Origin: Chitinophagaceae bacterium
GTDB taxonomy: Bacteria; Bacteroidota; Bacteroidia; Chitinophagales; Chitinophagaceae
Assembly (NCBI GenBank): GCA_947454235.1
Contig: CANGIY010000004.1
Coordinates: 1 to 64,000 of the forward strand
Reading direction: 5' to 3'
DNA: 64,000 nucleotides
Positions within the stretch are counted from its first letter, which is position 1, and each line of letters starts with the position of its first letter. A model generated the notes under the pieces. That model was given only the letters and a program-made list of their open reading frames with translations. It ran no database searches and had not been told where the DNA came from. This document shows, one piece after another, positions 9,323 through 25,134 of the stretch. The position numbers were made by a program, and so were the translations under genes.

Positions 9323-10693
9323 ATGCCTAATCGCGTTTACGACAACATACTTCAAACTATAGGAAATACTCCGCTTGTACGCCTTAATAGGGTAGTATCT
9401 GACTTACCCTGCAAGGTGTATGCAAAAGTTGAATCATTCAATCCGGGTAATAGCATTAAAGACCGTATGGCACTGAAGATGCTTGAAGTAGCAGAAAGAG
9501 AGGGTAAGATAAAACCGGGTGGTACTATAATAGAAGGTACGAGTGGTAACACCGGTATGGGTTTGGCTTTGGCGGCTATTATCAAAGGATATAAATGCAT
9601 TTTCGCAACCACTGATAAACAAAGTAAAGAAAAAGCGGACATCCTTAAAGCCCACGGTGCCGAAGTGATTGTTTGTCCTACCGATGTTGATCCTGAAGAC
9701 CCGAGAAGTTATTATCAGGTTGCAAGAAGGCTGCAAACTGAAATTCCAAATTCGTGGTATGTAAACCAATACGATAATCTGGCCAACCGTTTGGCGCATT
9801 ATGAGCAAACCGGTCCTGAAATTTGGGACCAAACAGAAGGTAAAGTAACGCACCTTGTTGTAGCATCGGGTACTGGTGGCACCATAGTAGGCACAGGTAG
9901 ATTTTTGAAAGAAAAGAACCCTAATATAAAAGTTTGGGCTATTGATAGCTACGGAAGCTTATTGAAAAAGTGGCACGAGACCGGCGAACTTGACATGAAC
10001 GAAGTACATCCTTACATTTCTGAAGGATTCGGTGAAGACTTTTTGCCTGAAAACTACGATCGTGCAGCCATCGACCATTTTGAAAAAGTAACTGATAGAG
10101 ATGGGGCTGTTATGGCACGTAGAATTACGAAAGAGGAAGGTATATTCGTTGGTTATTCTGCGGGTTCGGTAATAGCAGGCCTAAGGCAATTGAAAGATCA
10201 ACTGAAGCCTGATGATTTGGTGGTTGTAATATTCCACGACCATGGTAGCCGTTATGTAGGTAAGGTGTACAACGACGAGTGGATGTTGGACAGGGGATTT
10301 CTGGAAGTGAAAACAGTGGGTGATTTGCAAAGTGGTCTAGGTCGTCGCAGATTGGTTACTATTGATATGAACAGCAAGGTAACTGACGCAATGAACCTGA
10401 TGAAGAAATATGACATTGAGCAGGTGCCCGTGATGTTAAATAACGACATTGTTGGTACAGTTACACAAGCAGGGTTGTTCAAGAAACTTATTGAAGTACC
10501 TGAGGTGAAAGATGAGCTTGTTGGTGATATAATGGAAAAATCGCTGCCATTGGTTGATCGATCAATGCCAATTGATAGACTGACTCATTTCATTAACAAA
10601 GAAAACGGTGCTGTGTTGACTCGCGACGACAGCGGACAATACTATATACTCACCAAGTACGATATATTGAACGCTTTTTCAAAGGGTGTTTAG
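9323..10693 (+). CDS. Cystathionine beta-synthase / cysteine synthase with C-terminal CBS pair
   Basis: 456 residues. The N-terminal two-thirds is a fold-type II PLP enzyme: IGNTPLVRLN, NSIKDR with PLP lysine Lys46, the substrate loop EGTSGNTGMG (from residue 71) and GTGGTIVGTGR for the PLP phosphate. The last ~120 residues form two CBS motifs, which in this family bind adenosyl ligands and regulate activity. It condenses serine (or O-acetylserine) with homocysteine or sulfide; sequence alone does not settle which. The upstream in-frame TTG at 9293 was rejected because of the promoter position. Confidence 0.88.
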   Translation: MPNRVYDNILQTIGNTPLVRLNRVVSDLPCKVYAKVESFNPGNSIKDRMALKMLEVAEREGKIKPGGTIIEGTSGNTGMGLALAAIIKGYKCIFATTDKQSKEKADILKAHGAEVIVCPTDVDPEDPRSYYQVARRLQTEIPNSWYVNQYDNLANRLAHYEQTGPEIWDQTEGKVTHLVVASGTGGTIVGTGRFLKEKNPNIKVWAIDSYGSLLKKWHETGELDMNEVHPYISEGFGEDFLPENYDRAAIDHFEKVTDRDGAVMARRITKEEGIFVGYSAGSVIAGLRQLKDQLKPDDLVVVIFHDHGSRYVGKVYNDEWMLDRGFLEVKTVGDLQSGLGRRRLVTIDMNSKVTDAMNLMKKYDIEQVPVMLNNDIVGTVTQAGLFKKLIEVPEVKDELVGDIMEKSLPLVDRSMPIDRLTHFINKENGAVLTRDDSGQYYILTKYDILNAFSKGV

Positions 10694-10746
10694 TGCCGGA
10701 ACGGTTTTTGATGTACAATAGCCAGAGACAACCAAACAATTGAACT

Positions 10747-11226
10747 ATGAAAACGATCATGCTTGCAGCACTTATGTTGTTCGGGTTTGCAAATGCAAAT
10801 GCCCAGAAAATGAAGGCTGTTGATATTGATTATGTATTGGCTTACCCCCATAGTGAAGATACCGTTTATTTGGTGAATTACTGGGCTACGTTTTGTGCAC
10901 CATGTATGGGTGAGATTTCAGAGTTGAATGCACTGGTTGAACGCTATGCAAATAAGCCGTTTAAGTTATTGATGGTTTGCCTGGACCCGGTAGAAAACTA
11001 CCCGATGAAGCTTGACTATTTTCTGGAAAGAAAAAAAGTGAGTGGTGAACTTGTTTGGTTGAAAGAACAGAACGCCAAACTATTTGTTCCGAAAGTAGAT
11101 GAGAACTGGGAAGGTTCAATTCCCGCTTGCTTTTTAACGCGCCCCGGGAGGTATTCTAAGTTCATTGAAGGCGTTATTTCAGCAGGCAAGGTGGCTAAAG
11201 TAGTCGACGAGCTTTTCGCGGACTAG
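10747..11226 (+). CDS. TlpA-like thioredoxin-fold protein, exported
   Basis: 159 residues. A signal peptide (MKTIMLAALMLFGFANANA, cut before QKMK) is followed by a thioredoxin fold with YWATFCAPCMGEISEL. The CAPC redox motif lies about 50 residues in, consistent with a periplasmic TlpA/ResA-type disulfide reductase. The cis-proline region is SIPACFL. Family members reduce disulfides for cytochrome maturation or oxidative-stress repair. It lies 53 nt after the CBS-type gene and probably shares its transcript. The hairpin at 11290 ends the unit. Confidence 0.85.
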   Translation: MKTIMLAALMLFGFANANAQKMKAVDIDYVLAYPHSEDTVYLVNYWATFCAPCMGEISELNALVERYANKPFKLLMVCLDPVENYPMKLDYFLERKKVSGELVWLKEQNAKLFVPKVDENWEGSIPACFLTRPGRYSKFIEGVISAGKVAKVVDELFAD

Positions 11227-11289
11227 TACCAATTTGTTGAACTTTTTCTAGGGAGCTAGTTTATAATTGTGAATATTTTAACAATATTT

Positions 11290-11316
11290 AACAGACCGAA
11301 CGGTCTGTTTTTTATT
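11290..11316 (+). terminator. Terminator after the thioredoxin-like gene
   Basis: ACAGACCG (11291-11298) and CGGTCTGT (11301-11308) form a perfect palindrome followed directly by TTTTTTATTTT. The T-run favours a terminator over a repressor operator. Confidence 0.75.
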
Positions 11317-11562
11317 TTATATGCTGAATATTTCTTGATTGTATTGGGTGTTTTCTTAATTGATATTTTAATAAAACTTCAAGTGTATGTTATTGACAGA
11401 TAATTTGTTGTTTTTTCAAGTAGTTTTAGACTTTCATGGTCAGGGAATATTTTATAAACACATTAAATATTCTATGTTATTTTAATAATTGATTGAGTGT
11501 GTAGCTTGCATGACATCATTTTTTATGGTGATTTTTGTCAGCCTATCTTTTTAAGAGGATGT
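11317..11562. other. AT-rich intergenic region without a recognisable gene
   Basis: About 250 nt of strongly AT-rich DNA between the terminator and the promoter of the PAS protein. I see no open frame of interest, no RNA gene and no repeat shared with the rest of the window. It may hold regulatory sequence for the PAS gene. Confidence 0.5.
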
Positions 11563-11570
11563 TACGTTTG
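11563..11570 (+). promoter_or_regulatory. -7 box of the multi-PAS gene
   Basis: TACGTTTG, with a TTTG 25 nt upstream (11534-11537), somewhat long spacing. The gene starts at 11599. Confidence 0.5.
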
Positions 11571-11598
11571 TGTAGAATTTGCACAATAAAATGTTTCA

Positions 11599-14500
11599 AT
11601 GATTACAAACGAAGGAATAAGGCTGTTAGTAGATGGCATACCGATACCTAGTATTGTTGTTTACGAAGAAGGGGGGAGGTATCTGATTGCGGGCTTTAAT
11701 TCTTATATGAATGAATTGTTGAATGTGCCTGTCGCTGAACTAGATGGTGTTGATGTTTTTTCGGTGTTAAATGCAACTACAAATCCCTCTGAGCGAATAG
11801 AAATACAAAACCGAATTTTAAGTGCTTTTCATGACTGTACATCAACCGGGAAAACCACTATTTTAAGCTGTGTACCAGTAGCTTTTGGCCTGACCTTCGA
11901 ATTGTTTGATTTATTCGAGGTCCACCATACGCTCGTTAAGGGCGACCGTAACTATATTTTACAGTGCTTCAAAAAACTTGAGGTCGATAAATACCCCGAA
12001 CAATACCATTCATTACTTGGCGATAATATTAGGTTCAGACTAGAGCTTGAAGATTATAAACGCGCTCTGGATTCTTCGGCAATAGTTGTTTTTACAAACA
12101 ATGAAGGGCAAATAACCTATGCCAATGATTTGTTCTACGAGACTTCGGGTTATGAGCCGGCAGAAGTGCTTGGGCAAACACACAAAATTGTCAATTCCGG
12201 CTACCATTCAGCCGATTTTTTCGCCGCCATGTGGGAAACAATCACAGCGGGAAAAGTGTGGCATGGCGAGGTGAAAAATAGATCAAAAAAAGGCACTCAT
12301 TCATGGATGGAAACTGTAATTGTTCCATTCAACGATCAGCATGGAAAGCCGATTAAATACCTTTGTATCAGACGCGATATCACCCGTAGGAAGGCAATGG
12401 AAGATTTGTTGAAAGAATCGGGAGAAAAGTATAAGATTTTGTTTGAGTACAGTCCGGTCCCTATGTGGATCCTGGACATTGAAGCCCACCAGTTCCTCGA
12501 CGTAAACTTGTCGGCACTTAAATTATATGGGTATACAAGAGAAGAATTTGTTGAACTGATACCCGATTCTTTATTTTCAAATGATGATGACGAAAGGAGA
12601 AAAGCCCTGTTTGCAAGCTTTAAGTTTTTAGAAGGTCATTCTTCCTCTGATGAGTTAAAACATGTGACGAAACAAGGTAATCGCATTAAAGTGAGAATTG
12701 AAAGGTCGGTAATCTATTTGAAAGGTCGGAAGTGCCTTATATCTCACGCAATTGATATTACCCAAAACCTAGAAAAGCAAAAGGAATTAGAACAAGCATA
12801 CCAGCGCCTTGCAACGGCGCAAAATATCGCCAATCTTGGTTTTTGGAGCAGGGATATTGCTACAGGTATTTCAAAATGGACGGATGAAACGTATAATATT
12901 TACGAATTGGATACGTCTGTTATTCCTGATATGGAATTGGTAACTTCATTGTTTCACCCGGATGATCGGTACTTACTGGAAGGAGATGTTGCTAAGGACT
13001 TTGAAGCCAACAAAACTTACGAGGTTGAACATCGAATAATAACCGCGAAAGGGAATATCAAATGGGTGACACAGAAGTTGCGCATTGAGAATGACGAGTT
13101 TGGAGCACCTTCAGTTATGGAAGGGGTTATATTAGACATTACTGCCCGAAAAGAAATTGAACTAGCCGACAAACGGAAATCGATTTACCTCAGCATTTTG
13201 AATGGGTTCACAACTCGTTTGCTTTTTAATGGCGATTGGAAGTGCGCGCTATCAGGTGTTCTAACCGACATTGGTGCATCAATGCCTATTGACAGGGTGT
13301 TTTATTTTGAAATACTAGGCGAAGAAAAAGACAAGTATGCATCGTTAAAACTTGTTTGGTCGAAAAATGACAGTTGCCCTCCATTGGAAGGCACTGAGCT
13401 CGAACACATCAGATGGAGCTCAATGGCAACTATTTTAGATCCGTTGAACAAGGGTAGGGTGCTTGAATCACGTACATCGGAGGTGCATGATTTGCAGTTC
13501 AGGGAGAGGTTGGAACGTCAGGGTATTAAGTCATTGCTTATAGCTCCGGTAATTGTCAACAAATCACTCTACGGCTTCCTCGGATTTCAGGACTGTAAGT
13601 TTGAGCGTCATTGGAATAATGATGAGAAATCGTTTGTGAAATCACTGACTTCAAATGTTTCATCATATATAGAGAAAACGCACAGCGAAATCGAAGTAAA
13701 AATTAATAAAGAGAAGTTCAACAATGTAATTAATAATTTACCGGGTCTAGCGTTCAGATTACTTCCGAATGAAAACTTTGCTACCGACTTTATTAACGAT
13801 GAAGTAGTTAGGGTTACTGGCTATACGCTTGATAATTTTATTGGCACTCAGGCATTCAGTATCCTAAAATTGATACACCCCGATGATTTAGATGTTACTT
13901 TAGATATATTCCGTAAGCTAATTGATAACCAAGTAAATTTAATTGAATTCAGGATTGTTTGTAAAGACGATACTGAAGTTTGGTTGCGGGGCAAATGCAG
14001 GGCAATTTTCAATGAAATAAATGAATTTGTGGCTATTGATGCCGTAATGATTGACATAACTGAGGCCCGTAAAACAGAGCAATTGCTCGTAGAAAGCAAC
14101 GAACGTTTCAAGCTCGTTACACAAGCAACGCTGGAGGCAATATTTGATCTGGATTGTACAAATGGTAAAACAATGTGGGGCGATGGATTTCATGATTTGT
14201 TTGGTTACAGTACATCAGACTCAGAAAATTCGTTGTGGATTCCTAAAATTCACCCCGATGACAAGGAGCGAGTGCTGAATGAGATTTACAATGCGCGGCA
14301 CTTTTCAAGTAAAAACCAACATTATTCTGAATATCGCTTTCTGACGGCAGACAAAAAGGTACGGTACGTACAACATAAAAGCATATTTATTCGTGATAAG
14401 AGAGGTGTGACGCAACGCATAATTGGTGCCATAATAGATGTAACTGAATCGCTGGAGCGCACACGGAAAATTGCTGAACAAAACGAGACTTTGCGCGAGA

Positions 14501-14706
14501 TAGCATGGACTCAATCGCATGTAGTTCGTTCGCCATTAAGCAACCTCATGGGGCTGATAGGGCTATTGAAAGAACGAGATTCGATGGAATTGGATTTGGA
14601 TGATATGCTCGATAAGCTCTCTTATGAAGCCAATAGGCTCGATTCCATCATTCAGCAAATTATTAGAAAGACGAATAATATCGAGTTGAGTAAGGCTTTT
14701 TTGTAG
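11599..14706 (+). CDS. Multi-PAS/GAF sensor protein with DHp-like C-terminus but no ATPase domain
   Basis: 1035 residues, apparently cytoplasmic (no TM segments or signal peptide). Order: an N-terminal PAS-like region (1-135), PAS domains at about 151-265, 275-390 and 400-520, a GAF domain at about 528-695, and PAS domains at about 705-825 and 832-950. A two-helix segment follows whose first helix carries QSHVVRSPLSNLMGLIGLL, an H-box (His974) as in HisKA. The protein ends 61 residues after this histidine. No HATPase_c N, G1 or G2 box follows, and the 124 nt before the convergent purB cannot encode one. It could dimerise with or be phosphorylated by another kinase. Family relatives in Bacteroidota end in the same way. 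Confidence 0.85.
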   Translation: MITNEGIRLLVDGIPIPSIVVYEEGGRYLIAGFNSYMNELLNVPVAELDGVDVFSVLNATTNPSERIEIQNRILSAFHDCTSTGKTTILSCVPVAFGLTFELFDLFEVHHTLVKGDRNYILQCFKKLEVDKYPEQYHSLLGDNIRFRLELEDYKRALDSSAIVVFTNNEGQITYANDLFYETSGYEPAEVLGQTHKIVNSGYHSADFFAAMWETITAGKVWHGEVKNRSKKGTHSWMETVIVPFNDQHGKPIKYLCIRRDITRRKAMEDLLKESGEKYKILFEYSPVPMWILDIEAHQFLDVNLSALKLYGYTREEFVELIPDSLFSNDDDERRKALFASFKFLEGHSSSDELKHVTKQGNRIKVRIERSVIYLKGRKCLISHAIDITQNLEKQKELEQAYQRLATAQNIANLGFWSRDIATGISKWTDETYNIYELDTSVIPDMELVTSLFHPDDRYLLEGDVAKDFEANKTYEVEHRIITAKGNIKWVTQKLRIENDEFGAPSVMEGVILDITARKEIELADKRKSIYLSILNGFTTRLLFNGDWKCALSGVLTDIGASMPIDRVFYFEILGEEKDKYASLKLVWSKNDSCPPLEGTELEHIRWSSMATILDPLNKGRVLESRTSEVHDLQFRERLERQGIKSLLIAPVIVNKSLYGFLGFQDCKFERHWNNDEKSFVKSLTSNVSSYIEKTHSEIEVKINKEKFNNVINNLPGLAFRLLPNENFATDFINDEVVRVTGYTLDNFIGTQAFSILKLIHPDDLDVTLDIFRKLIDNQVNLIEFRIVCKDDTEVWLRGKCRAIFNEINEFVAIDAVMIDITEARKTEQLLVESNERFKLVTQATLEAIFDLDCTNGKTMWGDGFHDLFGYSTSDSENSLWIPKIHPDDKERVLNEIYNARHFSSKNQHYSEYRFLTADKKVRYVQHKSIFIRDKRGVTQRIIGAIIDVTESLERTRKIAEQNETLREIAWTQSHVVRSPLSNLMGLIGLLKERDSMELDLDDMLDKLSYEANRLDSIIQQIIRKTNNIELSKAFL

Positions 14707-19733: not shown

Positions 19734-21242
19734 TTGGATTCAATTTTAAAACTTTTGCCCGGGTTCAATTTGAATGCATTTTTGCAACAGTTCTTGTATG
19801 ACCCTAAAAATCCGTTGTTATTCAACAATGGCTTCTTCGTTTATTTTTTCTTTTTCTTCATAGTTCTCTATTACATTTTCAGGAACAATGGCATTGCCCG
19901 CAGCCTGATTGTAAGCGTGTTTTCGTTGTACTTCTTTTACAAGGCTAGTGGCTTATTCGTGGGTTTGGTGCTTGTATCGGCAGTGGTCGATTATGTGCTG
20001 TCGAACCTTATTTATAGGCAAAAGTCGGTAGGGGGGAAGAAGGCATTGCTGGCGCTGAGTGTGGTGGCGAACCTGGGTATGCTGTTTTATTTCAAGTACA
20101 CCAATTTCTTCATTGACTTATGCAATCAGTTTTGGGATGCGAAAATAAACCCGCTCAACATCATGCTGCCGGTGGGTATTTCGTTTTATACGTTCGAAAA
20201 CCTGAGTTATACCATTGATGTGTACAAAGGCGAGTTTGAGCCCGAGAAAAAGTTCATTCACTACCTCCTGTTCCTGTCGTTTTTCCCTAAACTGATGATG
20301 GGACCTATTGTACGTGCCAAGGACTTTATACCACAGTTGCACAAACCCTACGTAGTTACCGATGACGATTTTGCGAAAGGATTTTACCTCATTGTTTCAG
20401 GGTTGTTTAAAAAGTTGGTGATATCCGATTACCTCACACTCAACCTGGTGAACTACGTTTTTGATAATCCGGGTTTGCACACGGGTTTAGAATGCCTTGT
20501 TGCATTGCTGGCATATAGTGTTGTAATCTACTGTGATTTCAGTGGGTACAGCGATGTAGCTATAGGTGTTGCGCGTTGGTTGGGCATCAGGATACCTGCC
20601 AATTTCATGTCGCCATACCAAAGTAAGTCTATCACAGAGTTTTGGCGCAGGTGGCATATTTCGCTTTCCAGTTGGTTGAAAGACTACCTTTATATCTTTT
20701 GGCTGGGAGGTAACAGAAAGGGTAAAGTAAGGACCTATATCAACCTGAGTATCACAATGTTACTTGGTGGTTTCTGGCATGGTGCCAACTGGACTTTTAT
20801 TGTATGGGGGGGTATGCACGGTGGCGCACTGGCTTTACATAAAATGTGGATGGAGCTCACCGGAAAAGCATTTTCAAAGTTCAATAACTCCATTGTTTAC
20901 AACCTTATTTCGGGAGTGTTTACTTATGCCTTCGTTATCTTCTGCTGGATATTCTTCAAAGCCACCAATTTTAAAATAGCTACCGATTTCATTCACCAGA
21001 TTGCCTACAATTTCTCGTTCAGTGTATGGCCTGAGTTTTTCGGGAATTACAAAAACGTAATTTACCTCATGCTGCTCGGATTTGTAATGCACTTCATGCC
21101 CGATAGCTGGGCCGACAAAATGGTGCCGAGGTTCAAGCGAGTACCGCTATTGGGGTACATAGTAGTGTTCATGGGTTTTATTGCGGTGTATTCGTTCTTT
21201 AAATCGAGCACACCTGTTATGCCAATCTACCTGCAGTTTTAG
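19734..21242 (+). CDS. MBOAT-family O-acyltransferase (AlgI/PatA-like)
   Basis: 502 residues with about ten TM segments. The family signatures are NIMLPVGISFYTFENLSY, SFFPKLMMGPIVRA, FWRRWHISLSSWLKDYLYI and LLGGFWHGANWTFIVWGGMH; the HGANW histidine is the presumed active site. It would move acetyl groups across the inner membrane for O-acetylation of an exported polysaccharide, together with the SGNH protein encoded just upstream. The only start codon between the upstream stop and the first conserved residues is TTG at 19734, so a TTG start is likely. Its stop overlaps that of the convergent tfoX-like gene. Confidence 0.9.
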   Translation: MDSILKLLPGFNLNAFLQQFLYDPKNPLLFNNGFFVYFFFFFIVLYYIFRNNGIARSLIVSVFSLYFFYKASGLFVGLVLVSAVVDYVLSNLIYRQKSVGGKKALLALSVVANLGMLFYFKYTNFFIDLCNQFWDAKINPLNIMLPVGISFYTFENLSYTIDVYKGEFEPEKKFIHYLLFLSFFPKLMMGPIVRAKDFIPQLHKPYVVTDDDFAKGFYLIVSGLFKKLVISDYLTLNLVNYVFDNPGLHTGLECLVALLAYSVVIYCDFSGYSDVAIGVARWLGIRIPANFMSPYQSKSITEFWRRWHISLSSWLKDYLYIFWLGGNRKGKVRTYINLSITMLLGGFWHGANWTFIVWGGMHGGALALHKMWMELTGKAFSKFNNSIVYNLISGVFTYAFVIFCWIFFKATNFKIATDFIHQIAYNFSFSVWPEFFGNYKNVIYLMLLGFVMHFMPDSWADKMVPRFKRVPLLGYIVVFMGFIAVYSFFKSSTPVMPIYLQF

Positions 21243-21574
21243 GCTTTCTTCTTGGGTTTCACCTCAATCTTACGTGCGTTTTCATGCCCAATTGCAGCGA
21301 ACTTTTTCCAGTGTTCAGCGTGGGTGTAGGGGATTTCAATCCAACCCTTCATTTCCCTGTTATCAGCAGGGGTAAATGTTCTGGTGCCAGAAAGTTTTAG
21401 AGCTTCCTGTTCATCAGCTCCATTCAGTTTACACACCAGCAAGCCTGTCTTCGAATACATCACTCCGGCTTTCCCATTGGGTGCTTTAATGCACAATGCC
21501 CCAAACATTTTCCCCTCGGTAGCTTCTTCCAGCACACCCGCAATTTCATGATACAAAGCTTCTGATGGTTCCAT
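21239..21574 (-). CDS. TfoX/Sxy N-terminal-domain protein
   Basis: 111 residues with the TfoX_N pattern VLEEATEGKMFGALCIKAPN, VMYSKTGLLVCKL and REMKGWIEIPYTHAEHW. A basic Lys-rich tail follows (KIEVKPKKKA). Full TfoX/Sxy controls competence in gamma-proteobacteria. Single-domain proteins like this one are widespread in Bacteroidota with no known role. The ORF stays open upstream for 49 codons, but that part has no family match and the ATG at 21572-21574 fits the domain start. It is convergent with the MBOAT gene, and the two stop codons overlap. Confidence 0.82.
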   Translation of the reverse strand: MEPSEALYHEIAGVLEEATEGKMFGALCIKAPNGKAGVMYSKTGLLVCKLNGADEQEALKLSGTRTFTPADNREMKGWIEIPYTHAEHWKKFAAIGHENARKIEVKPKKKA

Positions 21575-21767
21575 ACTTGATGTTTTTTGTAAAAGTAGGG
21601 GATTGGGGTGGTAAATTTCCACGTTGAGGGTCGAATCATTTATGCACTGGCGCGGGGAGTTAGCGTGGCGCTCCAAAATGAATCGTTTTCCGTTGAATCT
21701 TCTACGGAAGGGTGGCGACATGACTCTGTCATGTGTTTTTTATATTAGTAGGAAAGAAACCGGGTTC

Positions 21768-21811
21768 AATTAGAGCGAGAGCGTAGAAGATTCTACGCTC
21801 TCGCTCTAATT
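21768..21811. repeat. Perfect 21-bp inverted repeat
   Basis: Arm 21768-21788 is the exact reverse complement of 21791-21811, with a 2-nt centre. It lies 15 nt beyond the stop of the ATPase-methyltransferase gene. No T-run follows on either strand, so a rho-independent terminator is only one possibility. Confidence 0.85.
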
Positions 21812-21825
21812 AAGAGATTAAATGT

Positions 21826-23862
21826 TTAATCATTTTGGACGTTAGTTTTTAGCCTAAGCAGTTCTTTATTTAATATTTGGCTAAAATCTAATGAGAAGCC
21901 TTTTAATTTTTTATCATCAAAGTACTTTAATACTCTTGTAGCGTTTACAAAAAGTTGACATAAGTTTGCATAATTTCTGCCTGACGCAACATCATTTTTC
22001 GATTTAATTTCTGAAAGTTCTGAAAAGGAGTTTTCGCATAACATTTTAATTGATTCTATTACCGTTTTCTCTGTCACCGAAATATCTTCTTTAGTTACCG
22101 CACAAAATGTAAACCGACCGTTGAATTGGGTGTTTTCTGATTCAAGCTCTACTGCTTTATTTGTGTTTAGCAAGCATTTTAATTGTCTGTTATTTAAAAT
22201 TAAATAACCAAATTCATGCGCTTTTTCACCTTTGGGTAATTGTTTGTCTTCAATTACCAGTAAGTACCCGTTCGGTTTTAGCAGTCTTTTAATTTCCATC
22301 ATTACAACTTCCCATTGATCGGGATGGATTTCATGAAGGACATTACACAGTAATATAATATCAAATGCATCATTTCCAAATTCTGTAGACGAATTAACTA
22401 CTTTTCTCACGCCATCTATATTACTTAGAATTTTATTAAAATCTTTGTTCGGTTCGAATGCAAAATATGATATTTTGTTTTTTGTTAACTTGTCTTCATT
22501 AATAGTTTTCCCTACTCGCCCTCTGCCAGCTCCAAAATCTAATAATTTTATATTTTTTGTATCACTCAAAAACTTTTTAAATAATTGATATTGTGGGTCT
22601 TTTGTATCTGCATTTGCAATAACGTCCGGTTCCTTGAAGCATTGAATGATGAAATTAGCATAAGCCCATTCGGAAACAGAAGTAATAAATGCTTGAAGTT
22701 GTTCAATATTTTCGCGAATTCCCATCAATTCAACTAGAGAATCTCCTGGAGTAGTTCTACTGGGTGGAGTTATTTTGCCATTCTGAACAAGGAAAATCTC
22801 ATCATAATTTAGCTGAGACAAAATAGTAACTGAATGTGTCGCAATGAAAAGTTGTCCTTTTTTTGAAACTAAATTTCTTAGAGCATTAATTAATTGAATT
22901 TGTGCAGTAGGGTGTAAATGTAACTCAGGTTCGTCTATAAGAATTATGCAATCTTCTATATTTTTTTGGTGTTCAATTTCAATAGATGAGAATAGAAGGG
23001 CATATGATAATAGTGTTTTTTGACCCGGTGATAAATCCTTAATATTCAATCTTGTTTCACCCAACAAAAGAAAACAATCTAGCTCATCAGATTGATCATA
23101 TTCAATTTCTGCATTGAGGAATATTTTGACGTATTTTTTTAATGAAATAAATCTTCGGTAGGCAGTTAGTCTTAGCATTCGATCTTCTATTTTTTCTACC
23201 TCCTTTCTATGCATTCTATAGCTTCTAGATTCTTCGTTTATAATTTTTTTTATTTCTAAGTTTGTTACATTTAAATTATCCAATGATAAAATATCGTATA
23301 TATTATCGGTGTAGTTTGGGGTTTTGGAGACAGAATCTTTTGGTAGAATCTGCGATTTATTTTGAATGCCATTGATTTTTGCACCATCGACAAATTTTAT
23401 ATACTTTTTTAGATTATCTGAAAAAGTATCAAACGAAGCTAGATATTGTCTAAAAGCATATCTACCTTGCTCCGAGAGTTCTTCTTCAATTTTTTTGTTC
23501 AGTCTAATTGATTCGTCCGATATTCGCTGTAAGTGTGTTTTGGGGCTATACTTCGAGGGAGGATTTTTCGTTGTTTCGTGATCGAACAAAAAATCTAACA
23601 TTAACTCAAACATTCCCATTTTCAATTGTGTAGTAGTTTCTAAATTATTTTTTAGTTCCTCGGGGAGAAATGAAAAGTAATAAAATAGTGATTCAGGATT
23701 AATTTTGAAATTATTCAATAAGTCTAAAATCCTAGTTTTTCCTGCTCCATTCTGTCCTACGAATGCAACCACTGCACCGAACGGTTTTGAGGATGGTTCA
23801 AATTGTTTTAGTCCTTTTGATTGAGTTTTACCTTCGTTAATTTGTAAATAGTTAATTCTCAT
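21826..23862 (-). CDS. AAA_21/ABC-type ATPase fused to a class I SAM methyltransferase
   Basis: 678 residues, cytoplasmic, on AT-rich DNA. Residues 1-370 are an SMC/OLD-like ATPase: Walker A GQNGAGKT (36-43), a helical insertion (about 60-250), ABC signature LSPGQK (277-282), Walker B IILIDEPELHLHP (305-317) and switch histidine His343 in IATHS. Residues about 430-600 are a Rossmann methyltransferase: motif I DFGAGRGRVG (442-451), FEPN at the end of strand 2 (Glu470), then DAFDIILLCNVLHEIHP (497-514) and LKPNGYLLVIED. There is no TOPRIM or nuclease domain, unlike OLD and GajA. The C-terminal ~80 residues are helical. It stands alone between structured non-coding regions. A role in anti-phage defence or RNA/DNA/protein methylation is inference only. 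Confidence 0.85.
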   Translation of the reverse strand: MRINYLQINEGKTQSKGLKQFEPSSKPFGAVVAFVGQNGAGKTRILDLLNNFKINPESLFYYFSFLPEELKNNLETTTQLKMGMFELMLDFLFDHETTKNPPSKYSPKTHLQRISDESIRLNKKIEEELSEQGRYAFRQYLASFDTFSDNLKKYIKFVDGAKINGIQNKSQILPKDSVSKTPNYTDNIYDILSLDNLNVTNLEIKKIINEESRSYRMHRKEVEKIEDRMLRLTAYRRFISLKKYVKIFLNAEIEYDQSDELDCFLLLGETRLNIKDLSPGQKTLLSYALLFSSIEIEHQKNIEDCIILIDEPELHLHPTAQIQLINALRNLVSKKGQLFIATHSVTILSQLNYDEIFLVQNGKITPPSRTTPGDSLVELMGIRENIEQLQAFITSVSEWAYANFIIQCFKEPDVIANADTKDPQYQLFKKFLSDTKNIKLLDFGAGRGRVGKTINEDKLTKNKISYFAFEPNKDFNKILSNIDGVRKVVNSSTEFGNDAFDIILLCNVLHEIHPDQWEVVMMEIKRLLKPNGYLLVIEDKQLPKGEKAHEFGYLILNNRQLKCLLNTNKAVELESENTQFNGRFTFCAVTKEDISVTEKTVIESIKMLCENSFSELSEIKSKNDVASGRNYANLCQLFVNATRVLKYFDDKKLKGFSLDFSQILNKELLRLKTNVQND

Positions 23863-23893
23863 ATTTAAAGTCTAATTTAGATTAGTCGTTTTA

Positions 23894-23901
23894 CAAAATT
23901 A
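23894..23901 (-). promoter_or_regulatory. -7 box of the ATPase-methyltransferase gene
   Basis: TAATTTTG on the minus strand, 31 nt before the ATG at 23862. No good -33 is seen. Confidence 0.5.
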
Positions 23902-23984
23902 CACAGTTTATTTGCTTCACTGATAAACTAAAATATTTGACTGTAGCCAAATTGTGTTAAAAGCTAATACGGGAATTGAGAATT

Positions 23985-24119
23985 CGCCCCAAACGCAGTT
24001 GGGGCGAAGGAAGTGTGGGCTGCAACTGCGTTGGAAAGTTTCATTGGTTTGCAACCGATTCTTCCCACCAACAACATAGATGCCACCTGCATCTATGCTC
24101 CCATCTCCGCTGGCGGAGA
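23985..24119. repeat. Multi-hairpin intergenic element
   Basis: Four inverted repeats in 135 nt: CGCCCCAA (23985-23992) with TTGGGGCG (23999-24006); AACGCAGTTG (23992-24001) with CAACTGCGTT (24023-24032), mutually exclusive with the first; CATAGATGC (24075-24083) with GCATCTATG (24089-24097); and TCTCCGC (24104-24110) with GCGGAGA (24113-24119). It is much richer in G+C than the gene beside it. The tail GGGTTGGGGTTGAGG resembles dispersed intergenic repeats of many bacterial genomes. No protein frame looks real. This fills the 384-nt gap between the ATPase gene and the acyltransferase. Confidence 0.7.
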
Positions 24120-24216
24120 AGGGTTGGGGTTGAGGTGGTCTTGTTCAAGAAATCTTAAAACTTTTGATAATACCCTTGCTCATTTATGAATCTATGATTC
24201 AATGGTGGCTAATCAT

Positions 24217-24224
24217 TAATTTTG
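24217..24224 (+). promoter_or_regulatory. -7 box of the LpxL-like acyltransferase
   Basis: TAATTTTG, 22 nt before the ATG at 24247. Confidence 0.55.
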
Positions 24225-24246
24225 CCGTCGTTTTTAAAACCACAGC

Positions 24247-25134
24247 ATGGGCATACTATTGACTCCGTTGGTCTACCTTCTTTCGATACTTCCGTTTTGG
24301 ATGCTGTATGGTTTTTCCAATTTCGTGTGTTTCCTCATGTACAGGGTATTTGGCTACAGGAAAGAAATTGTGCTCACCAACTTGCGCAATTCATTCCCTG
24401 AAAAGTCGGAGGCAGAGATACAGAAAATATGCAAAGGCTATTTTCAGTTCATGTGCGACCTTTTCCTGGAGAGTTTTAAAACGCTCACCATATCGGTGGA
24501 GACTATGCAAAAGAGAATGGTGCTTTCGCCGCAGGCAAAGGAAATATTCGACCATTACAATGATAAGGGTGAAAGCGTGATGATGGTGCTGGGGCATTAT
24601 GGAAACTGGGAATGGGGCGGCAATTGCTTTTCGCTCAACTGCAAGCAACAATTGTATGTTATCTATCACCCATTGGGCAACCAGTTTTTCGACGACCTTA
24701 TGTTCAAGATGCGTTCCCGTTTTGGTACGAAGCTCATTACCATGAAAAATACATTTAAGGAAATGTTAGGTGGAGAAATGGGTTTGAATGTGGCAGCCTT
24801 TATTGCTGACCAAACACCTAGCAACGACAATGCCTACTGGACTACGTTCTTGAATCAGGAAACACCCATCTTCTGGGGCACTGAAATTCTTTCAAGAAAA
24901 TTGAAACGCCCTATTGTGTTTGTAAACATTGACAGGATTAAACGAGGCTATTATCAAATAAACGCTGAGGTGCTGGTTGCCAACCCGGGCGAGACAAAAG
25001 AGGGCGAGATTTCAGAACTGCACACTCGCAGGCTTGAGCAAGATATCATCAGGAAACCCGAGCTTTGGTTATGGTCGCACAGACGCTGGAAACGCAAACG
25101 TCCGGCGCCAACACCCGAGGAGGTGACCGCATAA
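24247..25134 (+). CDS. LpxL/HtrB-type lipid A acyltransferase
   Basis: 295 residues. One N-terminal hydrophobic segment (LLTPLVYLLSILPFWMLYGF) anchors it to the inner-membrane face. The acyltransferase HX4E motif is HYGNWE (His117, Glu122). LYVIYHPLGNQFFDDLMFKM and then ADQTPSNDNAYWTTF are the usual LpxL/HtrB blocks, and the basic tail WLWSHRRWKRKRP also fits. It adds a secondary acyl chain to lipid A. It lies 121 nt before gmhA, in a small LPS-related neighbourhood, but each has its own -7 box. Confidence 0.9.
   Translation: MGILLTPLVYLLSILPFWMLYGFSNFVCFLMYRVFGYRKEIVLTNLRNSFPEKSEAEIQKICKGYFQFMCDLFLESFKTLTISVETMQKRMVLSPQAKEIFDHYNDKGESVMMVLGHYGNWEWGGNCFSLNCKQQLYVIYHPLGNQFFDDLMFKMRSRFGTKLITMKNTFKEMLGGEMGLNVAAFIADQTPSNDNAYWTTFLNQETPIFWGTEILSRKLKRPIVFVNIDRIKRGYYQINAEVLVANPGETKEGEISELHTRRLEQDIIRKPELWLWSHRRWKRKRPAPTPEEVTA

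Follow-up and report, generated by a model that had tools for sequence, protein, structure and literature searches.

A single-gene fusion of a PtuA/OLD-type ATPase and a class I methyltransferase as a candidate accessory defence system

ATPases of the PtuA, AriA, and OLD kind drive nucleases in anti-phage systems, and ATPases resembling OLD and PtuA also occur outside defence. PtuA acts with a separate HNH nuclease, PtuB, to which retrons add a reverse transcriptase and a noncoding RNA; OLD and Gabija GajA are single chains in which the ATPase is followed by a C-terminal catalytic domain, a TOPRIM nuclease; and MADS is a multi-gene system. In PARIS, according to one account (PMC12839542), the ATPase AriA, on detecting the phage protein Ocr, activates the effector AriB, a TOPRIM nuclease, which cuts host tRNAs. 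We identified a gene in which an ATPase related to these is joined to a methyltransferase in one chain.

The gene lies in the window, the whole 64,000-nucleotide stretch of Chitinophagaceae DNA analyzed here, at positions 21826 to 23862 of the minus strand and encodes 678 amino acids plus a stop codon. The plus strand carries 71 stops across the same interval. Both halves of the protein exceeded their Pfam cut-offs, and 10 full-length fused homologues were collected (alignment A3), which rules out an assembly artefact or a chance fusion; since the key residues are also invariant in both active sites across these copies, the family is genuine and beyond what chance would give. A sequence-only reading of the locus had proposed this frame with its ATPase motifs and methyltransferase motif I, and every residue number that it quoted was correct; the strand, which it did not give, is the minus strand. 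It had also described the gene as AT-rich, which the composition bears out (31.3% GC vs 40.8% for the 64-kb window), and as a solitary accessory gene combining an ATPase with a methyltransferase; the analyses that follow support this domain architecture as well as the gene's being solitary and accessory. Its author knew of no named system of this kind, and indeed only parts of the protein were matched in Pfam, NCBIfam, and PADLOC 2.0.0, with no name or description of the fused architecture found in these collections or in an open-access library (the 2020 ABC ATPase classification, Krishnan et al., lying outside the scope). Among the best 25 of 79 NCBIfam rows for the window protein, none reached its cut-off. 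The sensor module is already known, and a fused methyltransferase effector is not known to us. On balance, we lean toward a one-gene accessory system, probably directed against phages or mobile elements, in which the OLD/PtuA-type ATPase controls a methyltransferase effector.

The ATPase module spans residues 1 to 386 (22705 to 23862, minus strand, as for all parts of the gene given below) and was recognized by Pfam, by the PtuA model of PADLOC, by profile matches to solved structures, and by fold. In Pfam, the window protein matched AAA_15 at 5.7e-18 (residues 31 to 347) and AAA_21 at 2e-13. The Walker A motif, GQNGAGKT (residues 36 to 43; 23734 to 23757), has G36, N38, G39, G41, and K42 identical in all 11 members of the family, the window copy included. 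The ABC signature, LSPGQK (residues 277 to 282; 23017 to 23034), has S278 and G280 identical in all 11 and K282 in 10, with alanine at this position in the remaining member (L078). Walker B and the D-loop, CIILIDEPELHLHP (residues 305 to 318; 22909 to 22950; residues 305 to 317 read CIILIDEPELHLH), keep D310, E311, P312, E313, H315, H317, and P318 in every copy, as does the H-loop its histidine, H343 (22834 to 22836).

The nearest solved relatives of this half are defence proteins. The ATPase-half profile matched the retron I-A ATPase 9n69 at 2.4e-17, followed by the PtuA proteins of retrons Ec83 and Ec78, Septu PtuA 8ee4 at 5.5e-12, and PARIS AriA at 5.6e-10, with weaker matches to elongation factor 3 (1.7e-8), OLD nuclease 6p74 (1.2e-7), Rad50, and most ABC transporters. 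Residues 1 to 386 of the full-length model aligned with Septu PtuA 8ee4 at a VIA-align Z of 14.5 (rmsd 4.7, 274 aligned) and also matched chains of retron PtuA. In PADLOC, the top matches were PtuA (6e-22) and AriA (3.3e-21), and in the best 25 of 124 rows, the best-matching stretch ended by residue 396, within the ATPase half. The PtuA, AriA, Old, and GajA models of PADLOC matched the ATPase half in all 11 members.

Each of these systems differs from the fusion in what accompanies the ATPase. The ATPase half is like PtuA of Septu and of type I-A retrons (Ec78/Ec83/Eco7) in profile and fold, but the fusion carries a covalently attached methyltransferase instead of a separate PtuB. No HNH or PtuB protein was found among the 3 scanned neighbors in the window or among the scanned neighbors at 9 homologue loci, whereas at 1 of the 11 loci (L062) an HNH protein lies 2.4 kb from the fusion, together with a restriction control protein; reverse transcriptase was absent from the 33 neighbor proteins scanned with Pfam, a subset of the open reading frames present. 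PARIS, including its fused AriAB form, pairs a similar ATPase with the TOPRIM nuclease AriB where the fusion has a SAM methyltransferase, and OLD and GajA, although they are likewise single chains with an ATPase followed by a catalytic domain, end in a TOPRIM nuclease that is replaced here. No TOPRIM domain was matched by Pfam in the window protein or its 10 homologues (E up to 0.001), and the C-terminal half takes a class I methyltransferase fold in the models, in agreement with the earlier proposal that a methyltransferase takes the place of the nuclease. The ATPase half also matched mad3 of MADS in PADLOC (6.2e-19), but the fusion is one gene, and its score against the NCBIfam MAD3 equivalog NF047739 was 32 bits vs a cut-off of 420.

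The methyltransferase module occupies residues 390 to 593 (22084 to 22695) and is followed by a helical tail at residues 594 to 678 (21829 to 22083). The window protein matched Methyltransf_23 at 1.6e-11 (residues 430 to 557), Methyltransf_12 at 9.9e-9, and Methyltransf_11 at 1.1e-7, all above cut-off. The model of residues 400 to 678, built from 11 sequences, was confident (pLDDT 85.2, pTM 0.81) and aligned with MtfA 3g2p at a VIA-align Z of 15.8 (rmsd 3.7, 169 aligned), with CurJ (Z 15.1), METTL6 (14.9), and UbiG (14.2) as other close folds. Residues 390 to 593 of the full-length model gave Z scores of about 15 against class I methyltransferases; that model, built from 6 sequences, was weak as a whole (pLDDT 67.5, pTM 0.44), so we draw no inference on how the two modules are arranged. 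The tail, which is helical in the models and has N640 in 11 of 11 and Q636 in 10 of 11 members, lies beyond the stretches covered by the methyltransferase matches listed in the structure comparisons.

The SAM motif I, LDFGAGRGRVG (residues 441 to 451; 22510 to 22542), which the earlier reading had delimited as DFGAGRGRVG from D442 to G451, has L441, D442, G444, A445, G446, G448, and R449 identical in all members, and residue 470, at the end of strand 2, is glutamate or aspartate in all 11, an acidic position that presumably holds the ribose of SAM. The SAM-binding residues, whose absence had been named as something that would refute the earlier proposal, are thus intact throughout the family on a confidently modeled class I Rossmann fold, and with the motif I glycines and the acidic strand-2 residue in place, this half is predicted to bind SAM. 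Fold, motif I, and the acidic residue are shared with MtfA, CurJ, UbiG, and METTL6; unlike these, the fusion has a CNVLHE...W...E...GE signature, C-terminal helices, and an attached ATPase. The signature consists of the motif IV region, CNVLHE (residues 506 to 511; 22330 to 22347), identical in 11 of 11 members, W517, also invariant, and a second stretch after strand 5 (residues 538 to 552; 22207 to 22251) in which E538, G545, E546, and G552 are identical in all.

DNA-base methylases carry a catalytic (D/N/S)PP(Y/F) or PCQ motif. Neither occurs at the motif IV position, where all 11 members read CNVLHE instead, and we reject a DNA-base methylase identity. The sequence-only reading had suggested an ATPase that senses DNA or a phage product and triggers methylation of nucleic acid or protein; the missing motif makes DNA methylation the less likely part of that hypothesis. 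Profile searches with the methyltransferase half gave generic matches (best E 9.1e-6), and enzymes acting on small molecules, peptides, and tRNA match at close Z, so that neither fold nor profile identifies the substrate and nothing marks this half as a toxic effector. Predicted viral structures returned generic methyltransferases. Of the putative substrates, a small molecule, a peptide, or RNA would agree best with the modeled fold.

Methylation marks self in restriction-modification and MADS-like systems, and the fusion could similarly be a defence gene whose methyltransferase serves as a regulator or self-immunity mark on a host target or on the protein itself, with the ATPase doing the interfering, perhaps via its coiled coil and DNA. 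The defence-type ATPase half fits this arrangement, as does the lack of any match to a nuclease or other effector domain in the protein, but the motif IV region is without DNA-base methylase residues, and no separate effector gene recurs beside the 11 copies, whose neighbors were partly scanned. We regard a self-marking role as unlikely.

The family comprises 11 full-length fused members from 11 genera and 7 taxonomic families, and the 10 other members are 25 to 42% identical to the window protein. AAA_15, AAA_21, Methyltransf_23, and Methyltransf_12 matched every member (E up to 0.001), and D422, P423, and Q424 are further invariant residues. Pairwise identities of the two halves are strongly correlated (Mantel r 0.92, a value reached in none of 9999 permutations); the two have diverged in parallel and seem to have moved as a unit from before the copies split.

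The distribution of the fusion is rare and patchy. Full-length copies were identified in 4 of 294 genomes of the window's own taxonomic family, 6 of 395 in a sample of the class, and 2 of 395 in a sample of the phylum, each including the genome of origin, and in 2 of 296 genomes of the family of another carrier (G383, itself counted); these samples overlap and differ in queries and thresholds, and the counts are not additive frequencies. None was found among 58 other genomes, including 10 of the same genus, 5 of which are 70 to 89% complete, which weakens the absence within the genus. Matches in these 58 genomes covered the ATPase half or a generic methyltransferase half only (best 6.9e-10), and the own genome has 3 weaker ATPase-half matches besides the fusion. 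An origin from a stand-alone methyltransferase of the relatives was rejected, as the 4 methyltransferase-half-only matches are ordinary and lack the CNVLHE signature. One of these 4 is a 1279-aa frame (L097, 56 to 3895) that by eye combines an MMPL-like transporter, an acyltransferase, and a C-terminal methyltransferase.

A first scan of genome contigs gave no match and a second gave at least 4 ATPase-half matches, with no full-length copy among the matches listed; 2 scans of viral contigs gave no match and a third gave at least 3 ATPase-half matches, again with none full length among those listed. Phage and plasmid searches yielded no full-length copy. A Gloeobacter plasmid match whose range extended to residue 469 was rejected: this 544-aa protein matches the family profile in the ATPase part only, and no motif I was seen by eye. 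In another phylum, that of a Granulosicoccus MAG, the fusion was found in 0 of 200 genomes sampled, a count that carries no weight because the sample included no genome known to match.

The gene family moves horizontally. Members from the window's own taxonomic family occupy 3 places in the tree, 2 of them paired with other taxonomic families at starred support, and their placement as one clade was rejected (p-AU 4.9e-8) in an AU test run after the tree had been seen, with the group defined by taxonomic family and not picked from the tree. When only own-family and f23 rows are considered, each falls on one side of a branch; with the other 5 rows counted too, the own family requires 3 changes and forms no clade.

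The copy in genome G669 (locus L061) is a bare single-gene insertion. The flanking gene order is kept among sister species; 7 of 7 fetched sister loci, taken from 18 sister genomes having a flanking gene, lack the fusion. By DNA alignment against L101 and L102, the extra DNA in L061 (about 9600 to 11633, about 2 kb, beside uvrA) is the fusion gene with little else. The gap that separates uvrA from a small conserved gene measures about 250 to 890 bases in 6 of the 7 sisters (L101 to L107), and the seventh lacks the small gene; this variable gap may be a small insertion hotspot. An insertion without a partner, and the fact that Pfam names AAA_21 after a putative AbiEii toxin of type IV toxin-antitoxin systems, would also suit selfish cargo resembling a toxin-antitoxin system, in which a toxic methyltransferase is held by its own ATPase and the gene is kept since its loss harms, with no anti-phage benefit. 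The toxicity of the methyltransferase half is, however, hypothetical, and regulated use would also account for the strong conservation of the two halves; we consider selfish cargo very unlikely.

The window copy appears to lie at a rearranged junction. At 10 lpxL loci of relatives (7 of the same genus, 3 of the same family, some ending at contig ends), lpxL alone was common among 13 window genes tested. At 9 MBOAT loci from the same genus, the MBOAT gene was kept, an SGNH gene was present in 8 and a glucosaminidase gene in 5, and the TfoX-like gene and the fusion were absent from all 9. It is the placement of lpxL and MBOAT, which flank the window copy on its two sides, in different neighborhoods within the genus that points to a junction, and these loci do not support a conserved core locus for the fusion. 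Nor did the homologues examined share one conserved syntenic core position, which had been named as an observation that would refute the earlier proposal.

We scanned 33 neighbor proteins with Pfam, 3 from the window and 30 from 10 homologue loci (1 to 8 each, no locus complete), and 10 proteins with PADLOC, from L074 and L062 only. As a raw count, 4 of the 11 loci have a mobile or defence context, with restriction-modification, toxin-antitoxin-like, integrase, or transposase genes nearby. L074 has type III restriction and modification genes, a PIN protein, a SIR2-like protein, and a NucS-like PDC-S11 protein; L062 has an HNH restriction enzyme, the restriction control protein mentioned above, and a nucleotidyltransferase-HEPN protein; L063 has DUF4062, PIN_12, and an IS1595-type transposase; and L010 has a tyrosine recombinase, an adjoining tRNA-Met, and, by eye, DinB- and DnaE2-like genes. 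For the other 7 copies, including that of the window, the scanned neighbors are mostly ordinary, among them uvrA, an S41 protease, a glutamine amidotransferase, a P-type ATPase, an OstA-like gene, tetR, and a lipid A acyltransferase; the genes closest to the window copy encode TfoX-like, MBOAT, and lipid A acyltransferase proteins. With these 7 copies outside defence islands, the genomic association with defence is moderate. No partner gene common to the 11 loci was seen among the neighbors, which were scanned in part. At L075, a 150-aa gene without a Pfam match (10870 to 11322), nuclease-like by eye, begins 2 nt past the fusion stop on the same strand; it could be cotranscribed with the fusion and was not seen beside other copies.

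Having 7 of 11 copies away from recognized defence genes would suit a function other than defence, that of a horizontally mobile enzyme for stress or for modifying antibiotics or small molecules, with the ATPase half regulating or coupling a metabolic methylation; methyltransferases of antibiotics and metabolites, MtfA and CurJ among them, make up the majority of this half's best matches by fold and profile. The ATPase half is nevertheless closest to PtuA and AriA, 4 copies sit in mobile or defence settings, and no common metabolic neighbor was seen among the 11 loci, so that a metabolic role seems to us quite unlikely. Support for the defence role that we favor is indirect and comes from the kinship of the ATPase to PtuA, AriA, and OLD, the patchy horizontal spread, and the mobile or defence setting of 4 of the 11 loci.

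For the probable defence system, we infer a dimer switch with the methyltransferase as effector. The ATPase would dimerize on ATP and serve as both sensor and switch, responding to an infection signal and turning on the C-terminal methyltransferase, which occupies the place of the nuclease that related anti-phage ATPases carry or recruit. The sensor and switch role follows from the named relatives, PARIS AriA in particular, and methylation as the output from the intact active site in the sequence. The target of the methyltransferase may be RNA, a protein, a peptide, or a small molecule of host or phage origin, as opposed to DNA bases, and its methylation may stop phage growth, perhaps together with the cell. 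We hold more tentatively, as a possibility of somewhat less than even standing, the specific version in which an infection-sensing ATPase unleashes the methyltransferase and immunity comes from methylating an essential non-DNA molecule or from the drain on SAM that this causes. If true, a chemically different output would be added to the PtuA/AriA/OLD sensor module. The fusion is natural, both active sites are kept across 7 taxonomic families, and a single gene is easily cloned and tested; phage protection, if found, would raise the question of which methylated molecule stops the phage.

Elsewhere in the window, a 1035-aa frame at 11599 to 14706 resembles a multi-PAS sensor by eye, with no obvious catalytic end. 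A search of positions 21000 to 24600 against Rfam gave one match, far below the gathering score, and an RNA element at the gene was set aside on that ground. The gene had been described as lying between a perfect palindrome and a multi-hairpin element; the palindrome is real, but the other element proved to be a dispersed repeat that is not specific to the gene. The palindrome is a perfect inverted repeat with 21-nt arms and a 2-nt spacer at 21768 to 21811, 14 nt past the stop codon; its own 2 arms are its only occurrences in the genome (up to 3 mismatches). The terminator scan did not call it, and it has no T-run. Being unique where the other element is dispersed, it may be the gene's own end signal, possibly a transcript-ending hairpin of the fusion gene. 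The dispersed multi-hairpin repeat, at 23992 to 24160 upstream of the gene, is not part of the system. In the own genome, where 40 of 50 candidates were scored, it has at least 29 other partial matches, and its parts, 23992 to 24058 and 24064 to 24160, each recur there, at 4 places near each other on opposite strands, unlike in the window. The element resembles REP/BIME-like or MITE-like intergenic families.
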